Below, piece after piece: positions 53,095-60,570 of a stretch of 64,000 bases of DNA. A program made the translations under genes and the position numbers. How positions within the stretch are numbered: position 1 is the first letter of the stretch; the number at the start of each line of letters is the position of its first letter. The notes under the pieces were generated by a model. It searched no databases and was not told the origin of the DNA. It worked only from the letters and a program-made list of their open reading frames with translations. The stretch is from Verrucomicrobiales bacterium (lineage in GTDB: Bacteria > Verrucomicrobiota > Verrucomicrobiia > Verrucomicrobiales > DEV007): NCBI GenBank assembly GCA_029213065.1, contig JARGPH010000001.1, positions 124,001 to 188,000 on the forward strand. The letters run 5' to 3'.

Positions 53095-54963
53095 ATGTCG
53101 AAACGAACCTTCACCCTGATTCTCGTAGGAATCTTCCTCGTTGCTCTCGGAGCCATTGCGGTGATGAGGTGGCCGACGATTGCCGGCTGGCTCGAGTTGA
53201 GTCCTCCTGAATTCACCGCGGAGATTCCCGGAGACCGTCCCCGCCGTATCGATAAAAAACTCCTGAACCGCTTTGAAGGTCAGTCGATCGAGGCCATCCT
53301 CGAAACGCTGACGGCTGAAAAGGTGGTCATTCCCCCACCCCAGAAAAGCCGCAATGCGATTCTCCTCGCAAAACTCCCCGACGCTCCGCTCCCCTATGGT
53401 GAAGAGGCCGAGGCCAGAGACGGGGAAGGATTGAAATCATTTATTCTCGGCGTCCAGCAGGATACCGAAAACAAACCCACCGAGGAGGATCTCTTCCGAT
53501 TCAATCTCGCTCTCGCGGCGATGAAGATCCCCTCATCTCAGGTGCCGGCCCCGCTGCGAATCAAAACCCAGCCGGCGCTCGAATCCGAGACCTTTCCCGT
53601 GAGGCTGAACCCGACAGCTCTGGATCAGTCGGGGCCGATAGCGGTAGGCAACTTTGATGGAAAACCGGGACTCGAACTCGTTTCCGACGGGGGCAGCAAA
53701 ATCAGTTCGATCAGCAACGACGGCACACTCGTCCCCGGCAACGCCTGGCCTCTGACAACACCGGCCGACAAAATAGTCGAAGCCGATTTTGACGGAGACG
53801 GGGACCTCGACGCCTTTTTAATCAGAGGAGGAGGCCTCCCCAATTCCCTGCTTGAGAACGTTGGTAGCGGCGGGATGAAAGACGTCACGATCGAGAAAGG
53901 TCTCCTCGCATTCAGCGATACCAGTGCCGCCGCGTGGCTGGACTATGATGGCGACGGGCTTCTTGATTTACTGGTCGGAAATCACGATCACCCCCTTGAA
54001 CTCTATCATCAAACCAGCGGCGGCGCGTTCCAACCCGTGGCTTGGGATTTAAAGTGGTGGGTTCACAAGGGAATCAAAACCATCGAAACAGCGGACTTCA
54101 CCGGTGACGGATTACCCGATGTTTATCTGGGCCTCGAAGGCCGCGCCGACCAACTCTGCGTGACAAAACCGGGAGAGACCTGGGAAGACTGGCGATTTGA
54201 AGACGTTTCCGTCGAATCCGATCTCGAGACCGGCAAGTCGGCCGGAATACCTCTTTTCATCGATTTTGACAACGACGGCGCGCTCGATCTCGTCATAGCT
54301 AAAGGCGAAGCAGGGCCGGACAAACACAGGGTCGCCGTATTCCGGAATATCGGAAACGCACGCTTCAGAAATGTCACCGAAGATTCCGGAGTCAGCGTTA
54401 CCGTTCCGGTAACATCGATGACGAATGCGGATATCGATGGCGACGGATTCGAAGATCTCATCGTGGGCACCGAAACGCTGCAAACGAATCGCCTTTTCTG
54501 GAATCAGGTCGGAAGTGGATTCCGCGAAGTCAGTGCGGTGAGCGGAGGGGCCTTTCTCGACTCACCGGAGAAAATGGTAAGCACCGATCTCGACGACAAC
54601 GGCATGATCGATCTCCTCGTTGCCAACGAAGACGGCACGATTCGACGTCTTGAGGCCACTGATGCTGCCCCGGCCTGGATCAGCCTCCACTTGTCGCGCC
54701 CGGCTCCGGGTGCGCGTGTCGAGCTTCAGGTGCGCGACAGAGACTGGATCGTACATCCCATCACCCGGCAGCTCGATTCACACAGCCGGATCACCATTGG
54801 CGTCGGCAACGCTGATGTCATCGAGTCGATCGAATTCTTCGCCCCCGGCGAAAAGGAATCCTTTCAGAAACTCGAAAAAGTGGCACCCAATCAGCACCTC
54901 GAAGTGGAGATCAAAGAGCAGCCGAGAAAACGTCCCGTCGTTCCTCTCAGCAGTGGCGAATAA
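53095..54963 (+). CDS. FG-GAP/VCBS propeller with ASPIC/UnbV C-terminus
   Basis: This 622-residue protein has an N-terminal membrane helix (LILVGIFLVALGAIAVM, about 6-22) and seven calcium-type FG-GAP repeats, marked by ADFDGDGDLDAFL, LDYDGDGLLDLLV, ADFTGDGLPDVYL, IDFDNDGALDLVI and ADIDGDGFEDLIV. The C-terminal ASPIC/UnbV region has APGARVELQVRDRDW and VIESIEFFAPGEKE. Such proteins lie outside the inner membrane, anchored by the helix, and often bind glycans or proteins; function here is unknown. It lies 61 bases after trpD but probably has no link with it. Confidence 0.92.
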   Translation: MSKRTFTLILVGIFLVALGAIAVMRWPTIAGWLELSPPEFTAEIPGDRPRRIDKKLLNRFEGQSIEAILETLTAEKVVIPPPQKSRNAILLAKLPDAPLPYGEEAEARDGEGLKSFILGVQQDTENKPTEEDLFRFNLALAAMKIPSSQVPAPLRIKTQPALESETFPVRLNPTALDQSGPIAVGNFDGKPGLELVSDGGSKISSISNDGTLVPGNAWPLTTPADKIVEADFDGDGDLDAFLIRGGGLPNSLLENVGSGGMKDVTIEKGLLAFSDTSAAAWLDYDGDGLLDLLVGNHDHPLELYHQTSGGAFQPVAWDLKWWVHKGIKTIETADFTGDGLPDVYLGLEGRADQLCVTKPGETWEDWRFEDVSVESDLETGKSAGIPLFIDFDNDGALDLVIAKGEAGPDKHRVAVFRNIGNARFRNVTEDSGVSVTVPVTSMTNADIDGDGFEDLIVGTETLQTNRLFWNQVGSGFREVSAVSGGAFLDSPEKMVSTDLDDNGMIDLLVANEDGTIRRLEATDAAPAWISLHLSRPAPGARVELQVRDRDWIVHPITRQLDSHSRITIGVGNADVIESIEFFAPGEKESFQKLEKVAPNQHLEVEIKEQPRKRPVVPLSSGE

Positions 54964-55173: not shown

Positions 55174-56085
55174 ATGATAGTTCCCGTTCAACAAGACGAA
55201 GATTTTCTCGCCGATTTCGAGGAGGCTGACGGAGTCACCGGGGCGATTCATATCTGGTGGCTTGGCCAGAGCGGCTTCCTCTTAAAGTGGGACAGATTCG
55301 GTTTACTTATCGATCCCTATCTTTCCGATTCCATCACTCGCGATCATTCCGGAACCGACGAGCCGTTGAATCGCGTTTCCGAGCGCGTCATCGACCCGCT
55401 GAAATTGACCGGGATCGATCTCGTCGTCGCCACGAACAATGATCCCGACCGTCTCGATCCTGAGACGATCCTCCCTCTCCGGGCGGCGAATCCGAATTTA
55501 AAAATGATCATACCCGCAGGGAACATCGCGGAAGCCGACGAGATATTGGGTAAAGATGCCCCTCCCCTTCTCGGCGTGAATGCCGGCACCTACATCCGAA
55601 GCGGGCAGTTTGATTTTCACGGCATCAACTCCGCCAATCCCAAGATCCGCCGTGATCCCGAGGGCAACTCGAAAGACCTTGGCTTCGTCATCGTCTTCGG
55701 GCCCTTCGCGATTTATCACAGTGGTGAAACCGTATGGCACACCAACCTCGTCAAAGAGGTGCGACGCTGGTCCGTCAATGTCGCCTTTCTCCCCATCAAC
55801 GGCGATGCGGGAAATATCGGAGGCGGAAAGAGCATGAACGGTTTTGAAGCCGCCGCACTCGCGAAAGCGATCAGCGCGAGTCTTGTCATTCCCGGGCATT
55901 TTGATCTTTTCGACAAAGGCAATCCGAGCACTGAGGAATTCACAACCTGCTGCGACCGACTCGGACAACGTCACCGTCAGCTCAAACTGGGGCAACGAAT
56001 GACGATGGGGCCACTCACCGCACCCAGCGGCGGCAAGGCGCTTCCCAGCGAACCTTACTCGGGTGACTGGGGCCTCGGTTACTGA
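55174..56085 (+). CDS. MBL-fold protein (UlaG-like) with its metal motif lost
   Basis: This 303-residue protein has the metallo-beta-lactamase fold of the UlaG/L-ascorbate-6-phosphate lactonase group: WWLGQSGFLLKWDRFGLLIDPY, GFVIVFGPFAIYHSGETVW and LVIPGHFDLF. The family motif HxHxDH, seen as THDHPDHLD in relatives, here reads TNNDPDRLD (residues 87-95), so all three His are replaced. The later GDT is GET. The fold is intact, so it may be a pseudo-enzyme or use another metal-free chemistry. No signal peptide is present. Confidence 0.87.
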   Translation: MIVPVQQDEDFLADFEEADGVTGAIHIWWLGQSGFLLKWDRFGLLIDPYLSDSITRDHSGTDEPLNRVSERVIDPLKLTGIDLVVATNNDPDRLDPETILPLRAANPNLKMIIPAGNIAEADEILGKDAPPLLGVNAGTYIRSGQFDFHGINSANPKIRRDPEGNSKDLGFVIVFGPFAIYHSGETVWHTNLVKEVRRWSVNVAFLPINGDAGNIGGGKSMNGFEAAALAKAISASLVIPGHFDLFDKGNPSTEEFTTCCDRLGQRHRQLKLGQRMTMGPLTAPSGGKALPSEPYSGDWGLGY

Positions 56086-56175
56086 GGGCTCCCCCCGAGC
56101 TTGGAAGCGCATTTTCGTGACCCGCAGGTAGAAAATGCCGTTTGCATCGTCGATCCTTTTTCGACATGCTGAAGC

Positions 56176-58071
56176 ATGATTCGATTTCTCCTCATCATCG
56201 CAGCAATCGTTACCTTTCTTGGTAATCTGAATGCCGCTGATCGTCCGAATATTGTCTGGATCGTCTCCGAAGATAATTCCAAGCACTATCTCAAATTGTT
56301 TGATGAGGCCGGAGTGGAAGCTCCGCACATCGAAGCACTCGCCAGGGACGGCCTCGTTTTTGAACACGCTTTTTCCAACGGGGCAGTGTGTTCCGTCGCG
56401 AGAACAACCCTGGCGACTGGGTGCTACGCGCCGCGAATTGGAACGGCGTTTCACCGGAAATCAAAACTCGCCCACCTGCCCGAAAACTTTGAACTGTTCC
56501 CCCACTACCTGAAGGAGGCCGGCTACTACACGACCAACAATTCAAAGAAGGACTACAACGCGATCGAAGGAGACGGCACCTGGGACGACTCATCCGGCAA
56601 AGCTGACTGGCGCAACCGCGAAGATAAAACGCAGCCCTTCTTTCACATGCAGAGCCATTCGGAGTCGCATGAGGGAAAACTCCATTTCAGCGGGGAATCA
56701 TTCGCCACTGAAAAGACGCTCAACGATCCTGACAAGGTAACCCTTCCCGACTATTTCCCCGACACGGAACTGTTCCGATACACCTACGCCAGCTATCTCG
56801 ATAAAATGCTGACGATTGATGAGATCGTCGGCAAAACGATTGCGAAGCTTGAAGAGGATGGTGTTCTCGAAGACACTTTTGTTTTCTACTTCGGCGATCA
56901 CGGCGGAGTCCTCCCGAGGAGCAAAGGCTACATCTACGAGTCGGGTCTTCATGTTCCGCTCGTGATTCGCGTTCCGGAAAAATGGAAGCACCTCGTCGAC
57001 GCGGAACGGGGCACAAGGCAGAAAGGCTTCGTGAGCTTCGTCGATTTCGCACCGACTGCCCTGAAGCTCGCAGGCGTGCCGATTCCTCAGCAAATGGACG
57101 GACGCCCTTTCCTCGGCGAGGGCGTTTCGATGGAGGAGGTCAATAAGCAGGACTCCACCTTCGGCCACGCGGACCGCTTCGACGAGAAATACGACCTCTG
57201 CCGCTCACTTCGTGTCGGAGACTGGAAATACATCCGGAACTACCAGCCCTACCTGCCCGATGGGCTTCAGAACAACTACCGCTACTTCATGCTCGCCTAT
57301 CGCGAATGGCGCGATCTCTACAACGAGGGGAAACTCGGTTCAGATCAGCGCCAATTCTTCGAGCCGAAGGCACCGGAAATGCTCTTCGACCTTTCGACCG
57401 ACCCGCACGAAGTCAACAACCTCGCCGGCGATCCGGCTCATCAGGCGAGGCTCTCACAGATGCGCGAGCAGCTCCGGAAGAAGCTCGTGGCGATGCCCGA
57501 TCTCGGATTCTATCCCGAGGACAAGCTTTACGCCGAAGCGATGGAGGATCCCGTCGCCTACGGAAGATCGAGAAAAGAGGAAATTGGAGTGATGATCCGC
57601 ACCGCTGATCTCATGCTGCGCCCCTACTCAGACGTCTACGAAGATATTCAAGCCGCTTTGACATCGGAGAATGCGGGAGAGCGCTACTGGGCGGCAACGG
57701 TTTGCGCGGCCTTCGGTGAGGAAGCGAGCGATCTTGCGAGGCTTGCGAAACCACTTTTGGAAGATGAAAGCACTGCCGTGCGTGTCCGCGCCGCCGAATT
57801 TCTGGGGCTCACCGGGGAAATTGATCCGAGAGCGACCCTCATCGATGTCGTCAATCACGCCGACAACGAAGTCACCCAGCTGATCGCGCTGAACGCGGCC
57901 GCTCTCTTCCACGATCACTCGAGGCTCTCCTACCCCTTCGATGCTTCCAATTTTGAGAACGTCAAAGGCGAAGCGCAGCGCCGTATTGACTACTTCACCG
58001 GAGACTGGTTGAAACCCAAACCGGCAGGCAAGAAGAAAGGGCAAAAAGGGCAGAAGGCGAAAAAAGAGTAA
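56176..58071 (+). CDS. Secreted sulfatase with HEAT-type C-terminus
   Basis: This 631-residue protein has a signal peptide (to about residue 20), IVWIVSEDNSKHYLKLF in place of the usual DD block, and the active site C72-SVARTTLATG, where V replaces the usual P or A after the first position. The metal-site block VFYFGDHGGVLPRSKGYIYE is intact. The last 120 residues are helical repeats (RYWAATVCAAFGEEASDLA, AVRVRAAEFLGLTG), like HEAT repeats, followed by a Lys-rich tail. Such sulfatases are common in Planctomycetota. Substrate unknown. Confidence 0.92.
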   Translation: MIRFLLIIAAIVTFLGNLNAADRPNIVWIVSEDNSKHYLKLFDEAGVEAPHIEALARDGLVFEHAFSNGAVCSVARTTLATGCYAPRIGTAFHRKSKLAHLPENFELFPHYLKEAGYYTTNNSKKDYNAIEGDGTWDDSSGKADWRNREDKTQPFFHMQSHSESHEGKLHFSGESFATEKTLNDPDKVTLPDYFPDTELFRYTYASYLDKMLTIDEIVGKTIAKLEEDGVLEDTFVFYFGDHGGVLPRSKGYIYESGLHVPLVIRVPEKWKHLVDAERGTRQKGFVSFVDFAPTALKLAGVPIPQQMDGRPFLGEGVSMEEVNKQDSTFGHADRFDEKYDLCRSLRVGDWKYIRNYQPYLPDGLQNNYRYFMLAYREWRDLYNEGKLGSDQRQFFEPKAPEMLFDLSTDPHEVNNLAGDPAHQARLSQMREQLRKKLVAMPDLGFYPEDKLYAEAMEDPVAYGRSRKEEIGVMIRTADLMLRPYSDVYEDIQAALTSENAGERYWAATVCAAFGEEASDLARLAKPLLEDESTAVRVRAAEFLGLTGEIDPRATLIDVVNHADNEVTQLIALNAAALFHDHSRLSYPFDASNFENVKGEAQRRIDYFTGDWLKPKPAGKKKGQKGQKAKKE

Positions 58072-58110: not shown

Positions 58111-60570
58111 TCAAGTGCCTGACGAATCGCCAACCTCGCTTCGCTGCGTCGCTGCAAATTCATGACAACGCACCGAGGTATCGGTTTCACCGATCGATCT
58201 GCTAAGCTCTCCGTAGCTCGTGAAAACCTCTCCCAGCTGAAGCTTCAGATTCGAGCGAATCGGATTCTCCACCGCTGAGTCAGCCTGCAGCAGTTTTCCG
58301 GCTTCTTCGGCCGCCTCGATGCCGCTCAACAAAATCCTGACACGAGCCTCTTTCTCGTTTTCCAGAAACTTGAGATGCTCAAGCCGCGACTCCGATAAAA
58401 GAATCAGCCCTTCGGCATTCCCGGGAGTGATTTCGAGAGACTCCTTGAGCGCTTCGATGCCCTGCACGGAAAGGCGATAGCCGGAGGACCAATGATCCTG
58501 AGTTCGTTCCAGTTCCCCCAGATGAACGAGGCTGCGACACAGGAGCATCGCCACTTCAACATCACCGGGGTTCTCGGTGTTCAAAGGGGTGAGGAGACGC
58601 AGTGATTCGTTATACAACTGATCGAGTTCTTCTTCGTTTGCCTCGCGTGCGGCGAAAAGTTCTCCCAGCTCGATGAAACTGGAGGCCATTTGAATCGACT
58701 GCAGGGGGGAGAATCCATTAACGCTGCGCAGAGACTCGAGGGTTTCCATCGAAGCGACATGGGCATTGATGGACTCGTCGATCCGGCCATCCAACCGCAA
58801 CGAACGCGCCACCTGAAATTGAAGTTTCCCCACCAGATCGGTGAGCTGAGGGGAATCGTGTTCCGTATCCTTCAGGACAATCGCCAGATCCGCCGACCGG
58901 GAATAGGCCTTGATCGACTCCTTATACCGCTGGTGCGCATCATAGGCATAACCGAGACGGAAACAGGTACCCGCCTGTCTCATGATCACAGATTCATCGT
59001 CCGGCTTGAGCTCGATAACCTTGTCGAAGTGACCCACTGCCTTCTCCAGTGAGAGAAGGGCCTCATCACCGACGGGATTCTCGAGCAGGGCACTGATACT
59101 TTCATGAGAGTCGGCGAGCCTCATGTGAATATCAATGGCATCCCCGGAAGCGGCCCCTTCCTTCAGAAACGAATCGAAAGCGGTGATGGCATCCTCAAAA
59201 TGCTGAATCGCACGATCTGATAAGTCCATTTTCCGCTCGATGTGAGCGAGACTGTGCAGAGCCCGGGCCTCCTCGATGGGGGCGCTGTCTCCCGTCCCGG
59301 AATCGGCGAGAATCTTCAGGTAATACTCGCGCGATTTCTCCAAATCCTCGGTTCGCAGCGAAGCGACTCCACTACCGCCCGCATTATCCCCCTGGGCCAT
59401 TTTCTGGAAAAAAGTATCAGCCGCTTCCCGTGATTTTTTCAGGTCAGTGACTGTCTCGGCCCAGCGCTCATCGAGATGGTTGATGTGCGCTTTCTGGGTG
59501 AAAACCATCTGATCGAGTTCCGTCACCTTGTTCTGAAAGAAGGATGTTTTTCGCAAGTACTCGATCAGGAAATAGGTCGCACCGAGAAATGAGATACCGA
59601 GGCAGCAGGCGACGGCTCTTGCCCCGAACAATTTTGCTTTCTGCTTCCGTTTCTCTTTGAGAACACGTTCCTCCGCATCCTCGAGGGCGAAGCGATGCTG
59701 CAAACTCCGAAACTGATTGCGCACTTCGCGCAAATCCACAGGTCTCCTGGCGGGATCGAGTTGGAGACAACCATCGATGATCTCCCTGTACAGTTTGAAC
59801 TCCTGACTGACCCCGAAGGATTTTCCCCAGGCAGGCTCACCATCCTCAAAGACCTGTTGCAGAAAAGCCTGAATATTCACCTGAACGGGGCGTCCGCCAC
59901 TCGCAGCGACCTCCCGTTCGTGCGTCTTCAAATAAGCGCCACCTCTGGGAAACCGGGCATTCAAGAGTCGGTAGGCGATCACTCCGAAGCTGTAAACATC
60001 CCATCGCTGCACCTCGCCGTTATCCCACTCACCACCATCGCTGATGAGTTGTTCAGGGGCTGCGTAGTAGACCGAATCGCCGAGATCGAGATGGTAAACC
60101 TCACCGACAAGACCGGTTCCAAAGTCCGTCACAAAGTAACTCGTATCGGTCTCTTTTTTAGAAATGACCGTTTTCTTCTCCAGAATATTTCCACTGTGGA
60201 GATGCCCGTGAAACACCCCCTGCTTGTGGGCCTGCCCCAAAATCTCCACGAGTCGGCGAATAATCTCCCATGCCTCGCTTTCCTTTCGGGAAACCAGATC
60301 ATTGAGAGGCCCGCCATCGATTCTCTCGGTCACAGCCAGATAGGGAGCACTGTCAAAGCGTGAAGCGAACACTTCAGGAATCCCTTCAATTCGGGGCGAA
60401 GCGGTGAGGCGCTGATGCGTTCGAGTGAGAATTTTGCGATCAATCGCCATCGCTGAAAATTGCTTCACCACTCGTTTTGACGATTGACCACCCAACGCAA
60501 AGACTTCTCCGCATGAGCCTTTGCCCAGCGACTCTGCAAAAGAAAGTGAGTCGAGATTTAATTCACTCAT
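58111..60570 (-). CDS. Kinase-like membrane protein with TPR tail; catalytic Asp replaced
   Basis: This 819-residue protein has an Ser/Thr kinase-type domain (about residues 10-290) with the glycine loop GKGSCGEV (16-23), a Lys at 36, DFG (149-151) and an APE motif (AAPEQL, 170-175). The catalytic loop reads HGHLHSGN (121-128), where the usual HRDLKPxN Asp is replaced by His, so catalysis is doubtful. A membrane helix lies at about 316-340, and the periplasmic part (about 360-819) is TPR-like (ARALHSLAHIERKMDLSDRAI and similar). It may be a pseudokinase sensor with a periplasmic scaffold. Confidence 0.87.
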   Translation of the reverse strand: MSELNLDSLSFAESLGKGSCGEVFALGGQSSKRVVKQFSAMAIDRKILTRTHQRLTASPRIEGIPEVFASRFDSAPYLAVTERIDGGPLNDLVSRKESEAWEIIRRLVEILGQAHKQGVFHGHLHSGNILEKKTVISKKETDTSYFVTDFGTGLVGEVYHLDLGDSVYYAAPEQLISDGGEWDNGEVQRWDVYSFGVIAYRLLNARFPRGGAYLKTHEREVAASGGRPVQVNIQAFLQQVFEDGEPAWGKSFGVSQEFKLYREIIDGCLQLDPARRPVDLREVRNQFRSLQHRFALEDAEERVLKEKRKQKAKLFGARAVACCLGISFLGATYFLIEYLRKTSFFQNKVTELDQMVFTQKAHINHLDERWAETVTDLKKSREAADTFFQKMAQGDNAGGSGVASLRTEDLEKSREYYLKILADSGTGDSAPIEEARALHSLAHIERKMDLSDRAIQHFEDAITAFDSFLKEGAASGDAIDIHMRLADSHESISALLENPVGDEALLSLEKAVGHFDKVIELKPDDESVIMRQAGTCFRLGYAYDAHQRYKESIKAYSRSADLAIVLKDTEHDSPQLTDLVGKLQFQVARSLRLDGRIDESINAHVASMETLESLRSVNGFSPLQSIQMASSFIELGELFAAREANEEELDQLYNESLRLLTPLNTENPGDVEVAMLLCRSLVHLGELERTQDHWSSGYRLSVQGIEALKESLEITPGNAEGLILLSESRLEHLKFLENEKEARVRILLSGIEAAEEAGKLLQADSAVENPIRSNLKLQLGEVFTSYGELSRSIGETDTSVRCHEFAATQRSEVGDSSGT

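Follow-up and report, generated by a model that had tools for sequence, protein, structure and literature searches.

To our knowledge, most known pseudoenzymes of the MBL superfamily form the silent half of a pair whose other member is an active homologue. Flv1 and Flv2 pair with Flv3 and Flv4, which keep their ligands. These class-C type-2 flavodiiron proteins (Flv1 and Flv2) are reported to be unable to bind metal because of mutations in MBL motifs 2, 3 and 4 (PMC7785958, PMC4390876), and their pairing with Flv3 and Flv4 is discussed in one of these sources (PMC4390876). The MBL pseudo-nucleases INTS9 and CPSF100 are described as non-catalytic proteins that have lost HxHxDH and kept the fold (PMC7980224, PMC4819959); in INTS9 the motif is given as NYHC (PMC7980224). 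The PHP domain of Escherichia coli DNA polymerase III, of a different fold, is presented as a bacterial case of metal-site loss in which the fold was kept in a structural role (PMC3666897). UlaG-like proteins, the branch of the MBL fold considered here, are described as acting on phosphorylated sugars and nucleotides (PMC3219644). Here we describe a UlaG-like protein that has lost most of its metal ligands throughout a verrucomicrobial genus and is nevertheless retained; in open-licence papers we recognised no bacterial MBL pseudoenzyme of this kind. We think it rather likely that an orphaned UlaG-like MBL enzyme has become a metal-free pseudoenzyme that acts by binding a partner through a newer face of the protein.

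The gene lies in the window, by which we mean the whole stretch of 64,000 nucleotides that was analysed.

55174..56085, plus strand: UlaG-like MBL-fold pseudoenzyme of 303 amino acids (open reading frame, Pfam, AF2 model)

The frame opens with an ATG at 55174 and its stop codon closes at 56085. Membership of the MBL superfamily fold is supported by Pfam PF13483 Lactamase_B_3 (44.5 bits, curated cut-off 24), with the related PF12706 slightly below its cut-off (24.8 bits against 27). Two equivalog models score far lower than they require: NF008688, the UlaG L-ascorbate-6-phosphate lactonase (32.6 bits against 306), and NF001911, the PRK00685 metal-dependent hydrolase (45.4 bits against 144). An AF2 model built with 12 sequences has a mean pLDDT of 80.1, with low confidence in the last 21 residues (283–303) and at residues 211–218 (pLDDT <50). 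The best solved structure found by Foldseek is E. coli UlaG (E 8.8e-19), and VIA-align superposes the model on UlaG 2wyl_A with a Z of 27.2 over 264 residues (rmsd 2.8, 16% identity). The aligned range, residues 6–283, covers most of the chain and places the protein among UlaG-like folds. UlaG-like entries and NAPE-PLD head the fold search, and no unexpected folds appeared in either search with the window model. The protein shares with UlaG (PDB 2wyl, 2wym) the fold, a WWLG start and an HSG(D/E) motif, and differs from it in its low identity, its lost metal ligands and its lactonase score. For a complete relative, a model with a mean pLDDT of 83.2 served for secondary structure and confidence only. 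An antisense frame of 318 amino acids (55498–56454, minus strand) overlaps the gene and exceeds it in length, which is probably an effect of codon usage; length-based gene calling missed the MBL gene in 7 of 35 loci, including the window.

Seven positions are invariant in complete relatives (H88, H90, D92, H93, H155, D185 and H242, in window numbering), each of them in all 35 nearer and all 20 farther complete rows (55 in total; 6 + 29 + 20). By analogy with the MBL superfamily, we take these positions to be the metal ligands. In the alignment with ligand-complete rows, five of the seven are changed in the window protein, which places it outside the MBL metallo-hydrolases.

55435..55452, plus strand: residues 88–93, degenerate HxHxDH (N-N-D-P-D-R), with D92 and R93 in every row of the 28-row clade
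55636..55638, plus strand: N155 in place of the motif-3 histidine; His in 55 of 55 ligand-complete rows
55726..55728, plus strand: E185 in place of the motif-4 aspartate; Asp in 55 of 55 complete rows, and E22 Q4 A2 in the clade
55897..55899, plus strand: H242, the motif-5 histidine, retained here and in 23 of 28 clade rows

The first-pass annotation had reported that all three histidines of HxHxDH are lost while PGHFDLF is kept, and both observations hold: H88 has become Asn, H90 Asp and H93 Arg, with D92 kept, within TNNDPDRLD (residues 87–95), and PGHFDLF (residues 240–246) is kept in kind across the clade. Two further losses had escaped it, namely H155 to Asn (motif 3) and D185 to Glu (motif 4, HSGD to HSGE). 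The same three motifs (2, 3 and 4) are hit in Flv1 and Flv2, which differ as multi-domain flavoproteins of another MBL subfamily.

A degenerate copy occurs in 32 of the 33 genomes of the genus, 28 of them with R93 and 4 partly stripped. The fragments of G014, which read PDR and E185, are counted here by genome and lie outside the 28 aligned R93 rows; these rows include L068, whose genome is a named one that does not belong to the numbered set. Some rows (L018, L032, L037, L041) are cut by contig ends. In the 28 R93 rows, positions 92 and 93 are uniformly Asp and Arg, and the other ligand positions vary: S13 N9 G6 at 88, N17 T11 at 155, E22 Q4 A2 at 185 and H23 Q2 S2 D1 at 242, with position 90 drifting (the eight commonest residues are D8 Q4 A3 S3 R3 N2 E2 F2). 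The N-D-D-R pattern that the first-pass annotation had wanted checked for conservation thus dissolves, with N88 in 9 rows and D90 in 8, and leaves D92 and R93. Position 93 is His in all 4 partial-loss rows and in all 55 ligand-complete rows; because R93 is present in every clade row and His93 in every other, chance or sequencing error is excluded. The four intermediates (L026, L027, L030 and L034) all lack H88 and H155 and all keep H93, D185 and H242; three retain H90 and two retain D92.

D95 and H189 are also invariant in the 28 R93 rows, and T186 is present in 27. The conservation of D92, R93, T186 and H242 speaks against the explanation that we favour, as the old site may still be important. 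The suggestion of the first-pass annotation that the family has different chemistry could take the form of a mononuclear metal on D92, E185 and H242, or of metal-free acid–base chemistry with R93, D92 and H189. It draws on the invariance of D92, R93, D95 and H189, the last of which is also found in 33 of the 35 nearer complete relatives. E185 or H242 is missing in 11 of the 28 rows, so no alternative metal set of D92, E185 and H242 is conserved, and we reject that triad. With two once-conserved regions also drifting (see below), different catalysis seems to us improbable.

Outside the genus, HxHxDH is kept at all loci read, in 27 genomes of the family and at L076–L105. The copy was to be regarded as simply decayed, in the first-pass annotation, if all homologues had HxHxDH; this describes the relatives that we read outside the genus and does not describe those within it. 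Matches at E 1e-8 were found in 59 of the 74 genomes of the family to which the window belongs. Of 387 genomes spread over the phylum, 31 have a match at E 1e-20, the genome of the window included; one further phylum match, G265, lay outside the loci read for HxHxDH. In a collection of named genomes there were 11 loci, from Verrucomicrobiota (several labelled Verrucomicrobiales or Akkermansiaceae) and one Bryobacterales.

In a tree of 87 rows, all degenerate sequences (32 rows, from 31 genomes of the genus and L068) fall into one clade (100/100), which is nested inside ligand-complete sequences. Two proteins of a sister genus, L029 and L031, adjoin this clade (99/95), and within it the R93 rows, 28 in number, form a subclade (100/98). 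Dropped from this tree were distant paralogues (L002 and L060–L062), fragments of G014 and G044 (L063–L065), over-long frames (L101 and L102), L001 (entered as ‘window’) and nine duplicates. In a second tree, made with the trait columns removed, the 32-row clade has an SH-aLRT of 99, and 95 with L029 and L031 added. One intermediate falls among the 28 R93 rows there, so that these rows are not quite a clade, and R93 may have arisen once or have been gained and then lost. The changes needed on the second tree are one each at H88, D92 and H155, two each at H93 and D185, three at H90 and four at H242.

The degenerate copies are under purifying selection. Nine of 11 pairs of R93 sequences gave dN/dS values of 0.030–0.118 and seven of eight pairs of complete relatives gave 0.070–0.196, the other pairs being saturated, as was the single pair of intermediates tried. 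The gene is retained in 32 of 33 genomes of the genus, in which the sole miss is a genome that is 53% complete, compared with 27 of 41 family genomes outside the genus (Fisher p 0.0009, with genomes counted as independent and uncorrected for kinship or completeness). The listed matches from the genus contain no in-frame stops. Drift at ligand position 90 and in two once-conserved regions is what a gene decaying towards loss might show, but dN/dS and retention lead us to reject decay, to which we give almost no chance. The protein is homologous to enzymes, has lost their catalytic residues and remains under selection, as expected of a pseudoenzyme, with the enzyme status of the relatives judged from their ligands. 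The earlier proposal of a pseudo-enzyme is thereby borne out, by lineage-wide loss, by the existence of intermediates and by purifying selection; a ‘metallo-hydrolase’ annotation would mislead for the whole genus. Near-universal retention and strong preservation after ligand loss suggest a new, non-enzymatic job.

Loss of the ligands coincides with loss of a second gene. A MetE-like gene (Pfam PF01717, with NCBIfam methionine-synthase scores below cut-off) is present in 28 of the 74 family genomes, which are exactly the 28 that hold a complete MBL copy (27 outside the genus, and G017), and in none of the other 46. It adjoins the complete MBL copy in 23 of the 28. The 31 genomes of the genus that have a degenerate copy only lack it, and three of the four genomes that carry intermediates are among these. 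In the phylum sample, the gene is found in six of seven genomes with a close complete relative (E <1e-50), G151 being the exception, and in 0 of 380 others. The co-occurrence in the family (p 5e-21) does not count independent events, as it mostly reflects one or few co-losses; a co-loss on the stem of the genus covers most of both the retention and the co-occurrence counts, and the two genes are mostly neighbours, so that these counts are non-independent. In G017, a complete MBL copy (L059, G017:C345) lies beside a MetE-like gene on the same contig and an intermediate (L034) is at G017:C273; transfer, retention and binning error are possible origins of the complete copy. The copy in G044 is a fragment that covers the first motif only. 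We recognised no MetE–MBL pair in open-licence papers. The PHP domain resembles the window protein in being bacterial and in having lost its metal site and retained its fold, and differs in its fold and in being part of a polymerase; as far as it is described, loss there goes with having a partner enzyme, whereas here it goes with losing one (PMC3666897). MetE-like genes clustered with complete UlaG-like MBL genes lie at L128:4837–5868 and its neighbours, at L130 and at L131, and in three loci a transporter resembling nucleoside symporters joins the cluster.

The precedents among eukaryotic pseudo-nucleases raise the alternative that the protein plays the structural part in a pair with an active MBL protein, like INTS9 with INTS11, the active member being a distant paralogue that keeps its ligands. 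In 28 of the 33 genomes of the genus there is indeed another PF13483 match, a stronger one, and the four of these paralogues that were read, including L002 of the window genome, have HAHFDH. Their identity to the window protein is only 23–28%, so that they are no recent duplicates, and a close complete copy occurs in G017 alone among the 32 genomes that hold the gene. The window protein thus differs from INTS9 and CPSF100, which are eukaryotic, carry a beta-CASP domain and are paired with an active homologue, in that 31 of these 32 genomes yielded no close complete homologue. Pairing with a close active paralogue of the INTS9/INTS11 or Flv1/Flv3 type does not apply, and we assign the structural-partner explanation a small probability.

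The pattern of conservation has shifted between the complete relatives and the R93 rows, measured here as mean column entropy (complete relatives, then R93 rows).

55333..55371, plus strand: residues 54–66, conserved in complete relatives and drifting here (0.80 to 1.84)
55795..55836, plus strand: residues 208–221, conserved in complete relatives and drifting here (0.39 to 1.87); pLDDT <50 at 211–218
55741..55773, plus strand: residues 190–200, TNLVKEVRRWS, with a model helix at 190–197, newly conserved (2.25 to 0.61)
55945..56019, plus strand: residues 258–282, including DRLGQRHR and GQRMTMGP, newly conserved (1.91 to 0.50)
56020..56082, plus strand: residues 283–303, a C-terminal tail ending GLGY, of low model confidence and conserved

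Entropy rises from 0.45 to 1.05 at residues 86–97 and from 0.76 to 1.19 at residues 240–252, and over all 280 positions it falls from 1.36 to 0.88. The R93 clade is younger and less varied overall, which can explain part of the gained conservation but cannot explain the drifting regions. Among 65 positions near-invariant in complete relatives, 16 drift and 34 are still invariant in the R93 rows (positions 91 and 93, which belong to the 34, with a new residue); 43 positions that vary in complete relatives are fixed. The R93 rows carry a mean net charge of −7.9, against −15.3 for the nearest complete group and −11.2 for the remaining complete rows.

These shifts bear on whether the old pocket still binds a ligand. 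The first-pass annotation had offered a sugar-phosphate sensor, and a more general form of the idea has R93 replacing the metal, binding an anionic ligand (phosphate or carboxylate) in the old pocket and signalling to a partner. It is encouraged by the presence of R93 and D92 in all 28 rows and of H242 in 23, and by the phosphorylated sugars and nucleotides described as substrates of UlaG-like proteins (PMC3219644). Residues that vary little or not at all in complete relatives and would line the pocket nevertheless drift in the clade (K57, Y58, H65, R124, R215, G219 and F248, together with P213 and V217), the opposite of what a kept ligand pocket would show. The sugar-phosphate proposal finds no footing here, and we regard a ligand sensor of any kind as unlikely.

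The newly conserved regions may instead form an interaction surface. GY closes the protein in all 26 R93 rows whose end is intact, 22 of which have GLGY, all four intermediates end in LGY, and the RRW of the helix is found in all six nearest complete relatives. L029 and L031, which have all seven ligands, both end in GLGY, and one has GQRMTMGP and the other GQCMTMGP. As the tail, RRW and GQxMTMGP are already present in ligand-complete sisters, much of the new face was in place before the metal was lost. For the same reason, a binding role was probably acquired when the protein still worked as an enzyme, and outlasted catalysis.

Under the partner-binding explanation that we favour, the ancestor would have been a complete UlaG-like MBL protein with seven ligands, accompanied by a MetE-like enzyme. 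The genus lacks the MetE-like gene (one genome excepted), and on its stem H88 and H155 disappeared, the changes of H93 to Arg and of D185 to Glu, Gln or Ala following later. The protein would now hold no metal; the side chain of R93, near D92 and usually E185, may occupy the vacant metal site and stabilise the fold. It would perform no chemistry and would bind a partner through residues 190–200 and 258–282 and the tail. In a fuller and more doubtful version, which we hold only tentatively, a bifunctional metabolic enzyme would have lost its catalytic half with its pathway partner, its binding half would now be a core gene of the genus, and an invariant Arg would replace the metal cluster. This is a bacterial MBL pseudoenzyme without a close active paralogue, present across a genus, with complete and intermediate relatives adjoining it in the tree. 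Since complete, intermediate and ligand-poor forms are all extant, the order in which a pseudoenzyme is born can be tested: a second function, then loss of the pathway partner and the first ligands, then Arg for the last histidine of the motif.

The neighbourhood was compared by tblastn with one query per cluster at 35 loci (23 in the genus and 12 in other genera); several loci end a few kb from the gene, where the absence of a neighbour is weak evidence.

53095..54963, plus strand: FG-GAP repeat protein, the immediate upstream neighbour in 25 of the 30 genomes of the genus that hold both genes; an association only

At E 1e-40 the FG-GAP protein also has relatives in two other genera, in three genomes altogether, and at G017:C273:4513–6429 the neighbour is matched in two pieces, which may mean a broken copy or an insertion. 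Of the 23 genus loci examined, 17 have a gene for a sigma-70 factor close downstream, in most cases some 400 bases away; in the fuller version given above, the presumed binding partner could accordingly be a regulator. In the window, its place is taken by a sulfatase with C-terminal HEAT repeats (56176–58071). The order AlgH-like, TrpD-like, FG-GAP, MBL, sigma-70, FabF-like is shared by 10 of the 23 loci (the TrpD and FabF names were assigned from Pfam hits). Given this shared block, the usual gap and a window that lacks the sigma-70 gene, its proximity may be plain synteny. A scan for promoters and terminators gave counts barely above those of shuffled sequences (1 against 0.8 and 3 against 1.9). 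Further downstream in the window, on the minus strand (58111–60570), a large protein read by eye resembles a serine/threonine kinase followed by repeat-like segments.
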